Shown: one piece after another, positions 3,659-6,556 of the stretch | How positions within the stretch are numbered: the first letter of the stretch is position 1 | Layout of the letters: each line of letters begins with the position of its first letter | Source of the DNA: Acetonema longum DSM 6540 | Lineage (GTDB): Bacteria > Bacillota > Negativicutes > Sporomusales > Acetonemataceae | Length of the DNA stretch: 64,000 nt | Direction of reading: 5' to 3' | Assembly (NCBI RefSeq): GCF_000219125.1 | Contig: NZ_AFGF01000049.1 | Span: 1 to 64,000, forward strand | Position numbers and translations under genes: made by a program | The notes under the pieces: model-generated | Told to the model about the DNA's origin: nothing | The model's input: only the letters and a program-made list of their open reading frames with translations | Database searches by the model: none

Positions 3659-4948
3659 TTAGTATTTTTGCCAGCTCAACACCAGCATTGCCAACCCGGC
3701 TAACACAGCCAGGCTCACCAGGAATAACAGACCTCCGAAATAGGAACCGGACAAGCTGATGAACCATCCGATTAAAACCGGCGAAAAGGCTGAACCGCCG
3801 TTGGACAGGCCGTTCATCATACCGGCGCCGGCGCCGACGGCCTTACCGGGAACAATCAGCTGCAGCAGCGACCAGGAAGGAGGCAGAGCTCCGCCGATCA
3901 GGGCGATTCCCAGTGACAGATAAATGGCGCTGGTCCAATTGTCAGCGGCAACGGCGCCAAGATAAATAAATACGGCTGCGCCAAAATGGCCAATAGCCAT
4001 AAAGGGCGCTTTCCGGCCCAGCCGGTCAGACAAGTGGCCCACCAGGAGAACGCTCAGAGTTCCCATGACATACGGCAGAGCCGACAGGGCGCCCATCTGG
4101 GACCAGGAGAACCCCCGGGCAACCTTGAGGTAGGAAGGAAGCCAGGCCATCATACCCCACCAAATACAGGCAATGACGAAATAATTAAATGTCACCAGCC
4201 AGAAACGGTAGTTGTAAATGAAGGATTTTAGCCGTTCCGCCAAACTGGTCACCGGTGCGGCGGCTTCGGCCTCAGCCTCGGCTTTAAGAGCTGTCTCAAT
4301 ATAGTCCAGTTCAGCCTGATTGACCATCTTGCTGTCGCGAGGACGATCAGCGGTGAAATACCAAATCAAAAGCAGTGGAACCATGCCGAGAGCACCCAGC
4401 ATATAGAAGCTAAATCGCCAGCCCGTCTCAGCCACGATAGCAGCCAGTACCGGCATAGCCACAGCCGGGCCTACCATCAGACCCAAGAGCCAGACTGAAT
4501 TAGCTTTGCCCCGTTCGGCGGGAGGAAACCAGCTTTTTACAAAAGAACTCTGCATGGGCCAGTGCATGCCTTCGCCAATGCCCAAAACCACCCTGGCTGC
4601 CAGCATAACGGCGAAACTGGTGGCCATACCGCCCAATAATACCGCGACCGCCCACAATAAGATGGACAGGGCCATGGCTTTACGGGGTCCCATGTAATCA
4701 CCCAGAGGACCGGTCACTACATTGGCCACGCCATAGGCGATCAAAAAGAGGGTCATTAATAATCCCATTCTGACCGGTTGGTCTTTAATCCCCATATCAC
4801 CCAGAAACGTGGGATCGGCTACCAGTACCGACACATTGACTCGATCCAGATAAGCCACCATCAGGGTAAAAAAGAGAATTAGGACTAACATAACACGTCC
4901 TTTGGTGGGTTGAATCGGATTCACGCCGGGAGTGGTTTGTGTGCTCAT
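3659..4948 (-). CDS. MFS transporter, anion:cation symporter (ACS) type
   Basis: About 430 residues with 12 predicted membrane helices in two halves, joined by a charged loop near residue 210. The MFS motif between helices 2 and 3 appears as GPLGDYMGPRKAM, and its second-half counterpart is GHLSDRLGRKAPFM. The N-terminal YLDRVNVSVL pattern is typical of ACS-family carriers of hexuronate, galactonate, tartrate and related organic acids. It precedes the LarA-like gene by 88 bases in one operon, so a 2-hydroxyacid is the likely cargo (inference). ATG at 4948 is chosen because the GGAGG site is then 7 bases upstream. The operon leader carries a ykkC-type riboswitch and terminator. Confidence 0.88.
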   Translation of the reverse strand: MSTQTTPGVNPIQPTKGRVMLVLILFFTLMVAYLDRVNVSVLVADPTFLGDMGIKDQPVRMGLLMTLFLIAYGVANVVTGPLGDYMGPRKAMALSILLWAVAVLLGGMATSFAVMLAARVVLGIGEGMHWPMQSSFVKSWFPPAERGKANSVWLLGLMVGPAVAMPVLAAIVAETGWRFSFYMLGALGMVPLLLIWYFTADRPRDSKMVNQAELDYIETALKAEAEAEAAAPVTSLAERLKSFIYNYRFWLVTFNYFVIACIWWGMMAWLPSYLKVARGFSWSQMGALSALPYVMGTLSVLLVGHLSDRLGRKAPFMAIGHFGAAVFIYLGAVAADNWTSAIYLSLGIALIGGALPPSWSLLQLIVPGKAVGAGAGMMNGLSNGGSAFSPVLIGWFISLSGSYFGGLLFLVSLAVLAGLAMLVLSWQKY

Positions 4949-4998
4949 GTTCATGCCTCCTTATTCTTTCTAAAAATATGTCCGGTATAACTATTCAG

Positions 4999-5048
4999 AA
5001 AAAAGATAACCCCAGCGGAAAGTCGTACAATACGACCTTCCGCTGGGG
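4999..5048 (-). terminator. Leader terminator of the MFS-larA operon
   Basis: A 17-bp stem beginning CCCCAGCGGAA and closing with TTCCGCTGGGG (one mismatch), with a 5-base loop and TTATCTTTTTTC on the minus strand. Its first strand overlaps the 3' end of the riboswitch aptamer, so the two folds exclude each other. This predicts that ligand binding turns the operon on. Confidence 0.8.
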
Positions 5049-5137
5049 TCTTTTATACCCACGGTGTAGCGCTTCGCTGCGCCTGTGCCGCTCGGTTCGC
5101 CGGCTTTACGCCGCGGATCCCTAGGCACACTCGTCTG
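5040..5137 (-). ncRNA. ykkC-family riboswitch (subtype 2-like)
   Basis: On the minus strand the leader shows the ykkC signature blocks in order: GTGTGCCTAGGGATCCG, a hairpin CGGCGTAAAGCCG, ACCGAGCGGCACAG, a hairpin GGCGCAGCGAAGCGC, then ACACCGTGGGTATAAAAGACCCC. GTGTGCC pairs with GGCACAG. From memory of the family, ACACCGTGGG...ATAAAAGACCC and CTAGGGATCC resemble the ppGpp and PRPP variants more than the guanidine-I class, but I cannot fix the ligand. It lies between a consensus promoter and an intrinsic terminator, upstream of an MFS carrier and a LarA-like enzyme. Confidence 0.78.
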
Positions 5138-5149
5138 GATTATCATCTT

Positions 5150-5164
5150 TGTATACCGTATACA
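5150..5164. promoter_or_regulatory. Palindromic operator at the start of transcription
   Basis: TGTATACCGTATACA is a perfect palindrome with one central base. It spans the predicted +1 of the MFS-larA promoter. The shape resembles GntR-family operators, so a repressor site is likely; the repressor is not in the window by any visible evidence. Confidence 0.55.
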
Positions 5165-5168
5165 TTTT

Positions 5169-5198
5169 ATTATATGCCGGCCATTTATTGTTTGTCAA
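5169..5198 (-). promoter_or_regulatory. Consensus promoter of the MFS-larA operon
   Basis: TTGACA, 18-base spacer, TATAAT on the minus strand. The predicted start is near 5162, leaving a leader of about 210 bases that carries the riboswitch and terminator. Confidence 0.85.
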
Positions 5199-5239
5199 GC
5201 AGCTTTTGCCCGCCCGACCTGCCGGGTGCGGCCCCAGGC

Positions 5240-5252
5240 AGGAATCATTCCT
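5240..5252. promoter_or_regulatory. Palindrome upstream of the anion-transporter operon
   Basis: AGGAATCATTCCT, a perfect 13-base palindrome, lies about 20 bases before a TATAAT at 5274-5279 that points into the transporter operon. It may be an operator; the -35 is poor, which would suit an activator. Confidence 0.35.
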
Positions 5253-5329
5253 CCTGCAGCGAATACTTTAGACTATAATTTGCTCTCGGTTTAAACAGCT
5301 TGAAATGCAGCAAAGAGAAGGGGTTACCC

Positions 5330-6556
5330 ATGCAGCCAATGATCTTCCTCGCCGCCGTCATCCTGACCGGCACTTTTGTCGTCTTTGCCCTGGGCAAAAG
5401 CCCTTTCTTCCGCGTAGACCGCGCCGGAGCGGCGATTATCGGCGCAGCGCTTACCATTGCCAGCGGTATTCTGACCTTTGACCAGGCCACACAATTCATT
5501 GACTTTCGCACGATTGCCCTGCTGTTCTCGATGATGATTCTGACTGCCTACCTGAAATTGTCCGGTTTTTTTCAGTGGGTAGGCAATCTCATGCTGACGC
5601 GGCTCCGAACAAAAAATCAGCTTCTGGGGGCTGTAGTTGCCGCAAGCGGGATGCTTTCGGCGCTTTTTGTCAATGATATCATTTGTCTGTTGTTTACCCC
5701 TATCGTTTTGATTATCTGCCAAAGAGCCCAGCTGCCGCCGGTCCCCTACCTGATCGGCGTAGCCACCGCCTCCAATGTGGGCAGCGCCGCCACTTTGATC
5801 GGCAACCCGCAGAACATGCTGATCGGCAGCTTATCCCGCCTGTCTTTTGTTCAGTACCTGATCGTCGCTGCTCCTCTGGCCTTAGTCGGTCTGGCAATCA
5901 ACTACTATCTCATCCGCTTCTTTTACCGGGATGCACTGACCGGTCCCTTAACGGCCGGACAACTGACAGGTGTGGTCTATCACCGGCATCTGGTGAGGAA
6001 AAGCCTCTGGGTCACCGCCTTTATCCTGACCGGCTTTGTCACCGGCTGCGAGCCGGTGGTCGTAGCCGGTCTGGGAGCCGCTTATCTCCTGATTACCCGC
6101 CGCCTCAAACCGAATAAGGTTTATGCCAGCATTGATTTTAACCTTCTGGTTATCTTTACCGGCCTGTTCATCGTCATCGGCGGAGTGGAAAAAAGCGGTC
6201 TCATGGGTTGGCTGATGGAGCGGCTGTCCTTTATCGATTTTTCGATTTTCCCCTTGTTTGCGGTCCTGACCCTTGTTCTTTCCAATATCTTCAGCAATGT
6301 ACCGGCTGTGCTGCTGCTGAAGTTTTTCATTCCGGCAACCGATATTAGTGGCGTCTGGTGGTCTGGCATGGCGATATTCAGTACCTTCGCCGGCAATCTG
6401 ACCATTACCGGCTCCATCGCCAATCTGATTGTGGTGGAAATCGCCAAACGGGAACACGTCTCCATCGGTTTTGTTGAATATATGCGCATCGGTCTGCCCT
6501 TGACGCTTTTAATCAGCGCCATTGGCTTGGTTTACTTCCAGCTGTTTTATCTATAA
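5330..6556 (+). CDS. ArsB/NhaD-superfamily anion transporter (YbiR-like)
   Basis: 408 residues with about 11 membrane helices and the ion-transporter-superfamily layout of two inverted halves. The loop NVGSAATLIGNPQNMLIG in the first half and TFAGNLTITGSIANLIV in the second match the conserved substrate-loop motifs of ArsB, SLC13 and CitM-type carriers. E. coli YbiR is a comparable uncharacterised member. Arsenite, citrate and other anions are all possible cargoes. ATG at 5330 is used because GAAGGGG lies about 8 bases upstream; an in-frame TTG ten codons earlier has no site. It is followed after 21 bases by the XPB helicase gene, so these probably form one transcription unit. Confidence 0.8.
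   Translation: MQPMIFLAAVILTGTFVVFALGKSPFFRVDRAGAAIIGAALTIASGILTFDQATQFIDFRTIALLFSMMILTAYLKLSGFFQWVGNLMLTRLRTKNQLLGAVVAASGMLSALFVNDIICLLFTPIVLIICQRAQLPPVPYLIGVATASNVGSAATLIGNPQNMLIGSLSRLSFVQYLIVAAPLALVGLAINYYLIRFFYRDALTGPLTAGQLTGVVYHRHLVRKSLWVTAFILTGFVTGCEPVVVAGLGAAYLLITRRLKPNKVYASIDFNLLVIFTGLFIVIGGVEKSGLMGWLMERLSFIDFSIFPLFAVLTLVLSNIFSNVPAVLLLKFFIPATDISGVWWSGMAIFSTFAGNLTITGSIANLIVVEIAKREHVSIGFVEYMRIGLPLTLLISAIGLVYFQLFYL

Follow-up and report, generated by a model that had tools for sequence, protein, structure and literature searches.

Riboswitches of the ykkC family are built on one parent fold, that of the guanidine-I aptamer (subtype 1). In subtypes 2a and 2b, which respond to ppGpp and PRPP respectively, a pyrimidine replaces A46 of guanidine-I and a helix, P0, is added; P0 and most of the pocket bases are common to the two subtypes (PMC6031431). 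The distinction between 2a and 2b lies mainly in G96: PRPP aptamers carry this base, whereas ppGpp aptamers either lack it or have another base in its place, and ykkC aptamers can change ligand by few changes (PMC6031431). The ligand-contacting bases have been given as A5, G6, G48, A74, C75, A76, C77, G104 and G105 (PMC6031431), and for one natural ppGpp riboswitch the bases that respond to ppGpp have been listed as well (PMC10687018). In that RNA the minor groove of helix P1a accepts the purine loop of P3, these helices being called P2b and P4 there (PMC10687018). A second described system that bears on the present locus is LarAH10, a family of hydrophobic 2-hydroxyacid racemases. The Megasphaera enzyme is an inefficient racemase of 16 hydroxyacids, 2-hydroxyisovalerate and 2-hydroxyisocaproate among them; its native substrate is unsettled, and the characterised enzymes of the group favour linear over branched side chains (PMC11770544). 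Among open-licence papers, we found no report that connects LarA-type genes with a riboswitch of the ykkC or ppGpp kind.

The locus described here lies in a 64-kb window, by which we mean the whole stretch of 64,000 nucleotides analysed. Along the minus strand, on which all features below lie unless stated, reading from 5198 to 4954 reveals in order a promoter, a palindrome, a ykkC aptamer, a terminator with its T run and a ribosome binding site, followed by an MFS gene and a LarA-family gene. The promoter (5198-5169) consists of TTGACA at 5198-5193, an 18-nt spacer and TATAAT at 5174-5169, and agrees with the consensus at 12/12 positions; no second promoter-like site was found within 4900-5350. 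The intrinsic terminator (5050-5008) comprises 20 pairs and the loop UUG, followed by AUCUUUUUU, with a T run that reaches 4999, and its fold energy is -36.8 kcal/mol against a shuffle mean of -11.4. Ten aptamer-paired bases, from the 3' strands of P0 and P3, are included in the terminator 5' arm. At or just past the expected transcription start, direct reading gives a perfect 15-nt palindrome, TGTATACGGTATACA (5164-5150), which is possibly a GntR-type operator that would form a second layer of control. Among the upstream regions of 77 ykkC RNAs, similarly placed GTATAC-containing sites occur in many ilv, leu and liv leaders and are rare in glt-type leaders; in the window they stand just 3' of the -10 box, as they do at L009, L010, L043, L050, L057, L062, L082, L083, L088, L091, L095, L108, L109 and L120. 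Beside the leader, a divergent gene on the plus strand (5330-6556), encoding a CitMHS/ArsB-like ion transporter, points away from the riboswitch.

The first gene of the operon (4954-3659) encodes an MFS carrier of the anion:cation symporter type that is DgoT-like (PF07690, 1.7e-62). It scores 210 bits against TIGR00893, under the cut-off of 395, and matches the D-galactonate transporter of PDB entry 6e9n with E=7.6e-37; DgoT-like carriers import organic anions. Because the upstream-most ATG (4954) is only 1 nt from GGAGG, the ATG at 4948 is the likelier start. The second gene (3576-2272) encodes a predicted nickel-pincer 2-hydroxyacid racemase. By its score against NF052525 (668.9 bits, cut-off 540), its intact catalytic motifs HRxHT, HxxAGxGGGxK and NH, and its alignment to the malate racemase 6d6z, it is assigned to LarAH10, and two LarC homologues are present in the genome. 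Immediately 3' of the LarAH10 gene is a tRNA gene (2214-2141) that has the anticodon ACG and is, by sequence, one for Arg; tRNA genes likewise lie near the LarAH10 loci in L128, L129, L156 and L166.

The identity of the leader was established with covariance models. The sole Rfam ykkC model to match it, RF00442 (Guanidine-I), spans the full aptamer at a permissive threshold with 35.1 bits (E=7.7e-5 for 361 nt), against a gathering score of 63. The standard Rfam scan of the whole window returned nothing in the leader at the gathering score, because this only matching model describes guanidine-I. Our model R1, and the alignments fitted to it, contain the window sequence, so that their scores are not independent. 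Model R2, by contrast, is independent, since the 30 ppGpp-type RNAs behind it all come from other genomes and include neither the window sequence nor its variant features. R2 gives a single match in the 64-kb window, at 5138-5029, with 96.2 bits and E=2.8e-26, which rules out chance resemblance. Across the whole genome, with gene contexts taken from the ORFs at each locus, R2 scores the glt leader at 114.5, liv at 102.1, the window at 96.2, ilv at 91.1 and leu at 88.7 bits; lower down are purE at 62.1 and three guanidine-I RNAs at 39.0, 35.3 and 31.3 bits. These scores confirm at the sequence level that the leader is a genuine ykkC-family riboswitch. The preliminary description had read a ykkC-type riboswitch at 5010-5198, preceding an MFS carrier and a LarA enzyme, with a consensus promoter and a terminator whose first strand overlaps the aptamer. 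Its span is correct to within a few bases, each of these elements is borne out, and the significant covariance match that it called for falls below the Rfam cut-off yet is supplied by R2. Its further description of the enzyme as lactate-racemase-like holds for the LarA family and is refined here, the LarA homologue being, by family score, a LarAH10 enzyme and not a lactate racemase.

The predicted fold is supported by covariation. In an alignment of eight RNAs, 94% of structure cells are paired and 13 pairs show changes on both sides; 0/500 shuffles equalled either the pairing or the double-change value, and sliding the partners reduced pairing to 33-44%. P0 is 100% paired in the eight RNAs, with both-sided changes in 3/4 of its pairs. 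In the window, the P0 5' strand ACGA (5134-5131) pairs with the 3' strand UCGU (5035-5032), which lies also within the terminator 5' arm, and A5131-G5130 are the equivalents of A5/G6. P1 (5129-5124 with 5089-5084, from alignments A2/A3) surrounds P1a and P1b; within this region, the window has A5118 in place of a canonical U and A5097 in place of a canonical G, and G5091-C5090 are the equivalents of G48-C49. The joining segment ACACC (5067-5063) corresponds to A74-C78, and C5066 is the equivalent of C75, which pairs with the guanine of ppGpp (PMC6031431, PMC10687018). P3 (5064-5036) carries the loop AUAAAAG, and AAGG at 5039-5036 includes A103-G104-G105.

These features place the window aptamer closest to subtype 2a. 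It has the ykkC core fold (P1, P1a, P1b, P2 and P3) together with P0 joining the two ends, and CCGAGC puts the pyrimidine C5090 (C49) at the guanidine-I A46 position. The ACACC segment common to 2a and 2b is retained, as are all ppGpp-contacting bases of the published list, and, as in ppGpp riboswitches, the 3' strands of P0 and P3 overlap the terminator. The P3 bulge C5045-A5044 stands where the PRPP-specific G96 would be; position 96 is thus not G, with the limits that the alignment is ambiguous by one base here and that some canonical glt leaders carry a bulge G. On this match of bases the aptamer resembles subtype 2a, and its ligand is most likely ppGpp. One part of the consensus departs: P1a, which is conserved and does not contact the ligand, reads GGGAUCC/GA in the window rather than GGGUUCC/GG. 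For this reason the window aptamer is classed as a variant and not as a plain member of subtype 2a.

The same departure recurs elsewhere. Six intact RNAs share P1a GGGAUCC/GA, namely those of the window, G313 (UBA7701, L043), G070 (L041/L074), G306 (L082), G307 (L083) and G069 (L040/L075), whereas the canonical ppGpp-type RNAs of Negativicutes examined (about 60) have GGGUUCC/GG, bar scattered single exceptions. All six also have P0 ACGA/UCGU, where canonical RNAs mostly have helices like GGGA/UCCC or GAAA/UUUC. The two coupled P1a changes together with a distinct P0 occur in 6/6 intact variants and in no canonical RNA examined; the group is a conserved, distinct aptamer variant of the ppGpp-type ykkC riboswitch. 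An exact-pattern search of the rest of a 398-genome phylum sample found no variant outside the class, an absence that is weak evidence because the same pattern also missed G306 and G307, which read GAACCAAG. Five of the six intact variants (window, G313, G070, G306 and G307) sit upstream of an MFS-LarAH10 pair. The carrier of G070 is about 31% identical to that of the window, which makes LarAH10 the constant element of the pair. The sixth variant, in G069, precedes an operon of genes resembling a homocitrate/Re-citrate synthase of the NifV family, to which Re-citrate synthases are related, an NAD-dependent isocitrate dehydrogenase (IDH) and aconitase. As predicted from these genes, the G069 operon is a natural route to 2-oxoglutarate and glutamate.

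In relatives, other RNAs that respond to amino-acid starvation control the same enzyme family. In G317, which belongs to another family, a canonical ppGpp-type leader stands upstream of DctP-LarAH10 genes. In G090 (L131/L209) an MFS-LarAH10 operon is preceded by a T-box (RF00230, 93.6 bits, gathering score 93), an RNA that, like the window leader, has a terminator and controls the closest relative of the racemase among those compared, but has an unrelated fold and senses uncharged tRNA-Val. Its specifier loop reads GUC (Val), with a G between this triplet and the lower stem (GUC-G-UCC), and the valS T-box of the same genome reads identically. The specifier was calibrated on other G090 T-boxes of recognisable target (glyQ GGC-A, ileS AUC-A, tyrS UAC-A, pheS UUC-A, leuS CUC-A, leuA CUC-G, serA UCC-G and the trp genes UGG), after which readings of it as CUC or UCU were dropped. 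The antiterminator bulge, UGGU, fits a discriminator A, as in tRNA-Val. In a 16-row LarAH10 tree the window enzyme is sister to the T-box-controlled G090 enzyme (97/90), and both fall inside a 100/100 group with the canonical-ykkC-controlled G317 enzyme; one small LarAH10 clade is thus served by three different amino-acid-starvation RNAs. At least six listed LarAH10 loci have an intact ykkC leader, with coordinates compared by eye and copies related by descent not counting as independent events, and most LarAH10 genes have none. No further T-box was found in 60 upstream regions of other LarAH10 genes, and matches to SAM riboswitches before such genes were rejected because they lie on the opposite strand.

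Taken together, the reading that we regard as fairly probable from the sequence evidence is that of a variant ppGpp-type ON switch through which starvation would turn on hydroxyacid uptake and racemisation for amino-acid supply. The leader would act as a transcriptional switch on a variant subtype 2a aptamer. With ligand absent, the 20-bp terminator would form, taking up the 3' strands of P3 and P0. On amino-acid starvation, ppGpp would rise and fill the pocket formed by A5/G6, G48/C49, ACACC and AAGG; bound ppGpp would clamp P0 and P3 and block the terminator, and polymerase would continue into the MFS-LarAH10 genes. The carrier would then import 2-hydroxyacids and LarAH10 interconvert their enantiomers, from which the cell's dehydrogenase and aminotransferases would make first the 2-oxo acid and from it the amino acid. 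The imported substrate is probably 2-hydroxyisovalerate, the likeliest route leading through 2-oxoisovalerate to valine and leucine. Since relatives place transporter-racemase genes under other amino-acid-starvation RNAs, the operon probably salvages amino-acid precursors, and uptake and racemisation, under starvation, of the hydroxy analogues of branched-chain amino acids would explain the chemistry as well as both kinds of control, by ppGpp and by the valine T-box. The regulation in the window thus points to amino-acid supply, whereas for the characterised LarAH10 enzymes physiological substrate and regulation are not established. The preliminary description had favoured ppGpp as ligand, which is the choice best supported by the pocket bases and the non-G position 96, and its suggested link to starvation gains from the recurrence of such control in other genomes, valine T-box included. 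Against this reading stands P1a, the receptor of the P3 loop, with two changes absent from the about 60 canonical RNAs. The lack of such a leader before most LarAH10 genes and the preference of characterised LarAH10-group enzymes for linear side chains also weigh against it.

Control by ppGpp could also serve a catabolic operon that imports a sugar acid or a lactate-like carbon source in starvation. This is unlikely, but less so than any other alternative considered here. The carrier is DgoT-like, the Megasphaera LarAH10 epimerises D-gluconate/D-mannonate, and D-gluconate has been proposed as the native substrate of one LarAH10-group enzyme (PMC11770544). What weighs against a carbon source is that a valine-specific T-box controls the operon of the closest relative, although this T-box support for the amino-acid reading comes from one genome (G090), and that the other targets of ppGpp-type leaders in the class (glt, ilv, leu and liv) serve the supply of amino acids.

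Decay of the switch is a further concern. Clearly decayed ykkC leaders stand before the MFS homologue in SKW2 (L032:3780-3888, 23.6-27.3 bits) and before LarAH10 in G292 (L133:3725-3807, 31.5 bits), where the 5' half of P1/P1a is lost and a strong terminator kept, and in G316 (L180:1576-1684, 18.0 bits). Decayed leaders before the same genes make a weakened switch in the window possible, and the window copy itself is without two P1a-region bases that the other variants keep. A ppGpp riboswitch decayed to a relic, whose terminator acts constitutively or is governed only by a DNA-binding repressor at the GTATAC palindrome, would also fit the perfect palindrome at the transcription start. We nevertheless doubt it strongly, given that P0, P1, P1b, P2 and P3 are still paired and covarying, that the pocket bases are all kept, and that promoter and terminator are near perfect.

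Slightly less probable still is a new ykkC specificity class, in which the changes in P1a and the invariant P0 (ACGA/UCGU) would give the pocket a different shape and thereby a different ligand, such as a 2-oxo acid, a 2-hydroxy acid or a phosphorylated metabolite other than ppGpp, and tune it to 2-oxo/2-hydroxyacid metabolism. The restriction of the coupled changes to the six variants, the single gene pair controlled by five of them, and the known switching of ykkC ligands through few changes (PMC6031431) speak for such a class. Every base in contact with ppGpp in the crystal structure is, however, kept, the base-specifying C included, and, P1a being the P3-loop receptor, the variant changes sit in the docking site and not in the pocket. 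Moreover, one variant copy controls the operon predicted to form 2-oxoglutarate rather than hydroxyacid genes, and the G317 enzyme, a member of the same clade, is under a leader of the canonical ppGpp type.

A PRPP riboswitch (2b) would share P0 and most pocket bases with the window aptamer (PMC6031431), but is very improbable: the equivalent of G96 is lacking, the bulge being CA, no purine genes lie downstream, and the same genome's purE leader (L018), which has the 2b pattern, fits R2 far less well (62 vs 96 bits). A guanidine-I riboswitch for a guanidine carrier can be dismissed almost entirely, for although RF00442 is the best-scoring Rfam family, its 35.1 bits fall below 63, C5090 replaces the diagnostic A46 of CCGAGAG that the genome's own SMR-associated guanidine-I RNA (L011) retains, P0 is present, true guanidine-I RNAs reach only 31-39 bits with R2, and the genes are unconnected to guanidine.

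The survey also brought out other ykkC loci. Canonical ppGpp-type leaders precede, as far as the genes can be recognised from sequence, a phenylacetate-CoA-ligase-like gene and then one for an ACT-domain protein at L103, L105, L112 and L113, which suggests that arylacetate salvage may also be starvation-controlled. At L109 and L122 (G293) the genes that follow a canonical ppGpp-type leader are an isocitrate-lyase/PEP-mutase-like gene and those of a TRAP transporter (DctP, DctQ, DctM). At L045 and L207 (G090:C21) a ppGpp-type ykkC RNA and an Ile (AUC) T-box form a tandem before the gene for the binding protein of a branched-chain amino-acid ABC transporter. The ilv cluster at L091 (G069:C41) contains two ppGpp-type leaders separated by about 2.6 kb, and each of them precedes a separate set of acetolactate-synthase-related genes. 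Finally, the ykkC leader at L089 (G001:C27), intermediate in R2 at 79.4 bits and placed before a permease-like gene, may be PRPP-type.

With the favoured reading, a variant ppGpp-type ON switch for hydroxyacid salvage, the ppGpp riboswitches would gain a conserved aptamer variant and a new type of target. Combined with the valine T-box that controls a close relative, the locus would offer a testable answer to the cellular role of LarAH10, whose native substrate is unresolved according to the authors who characterised it. If the reading is true, anaerobic Negativicutes would respond to amino-acid starvation in part through import and racemisation of the hydroxy analogues of amino acids.
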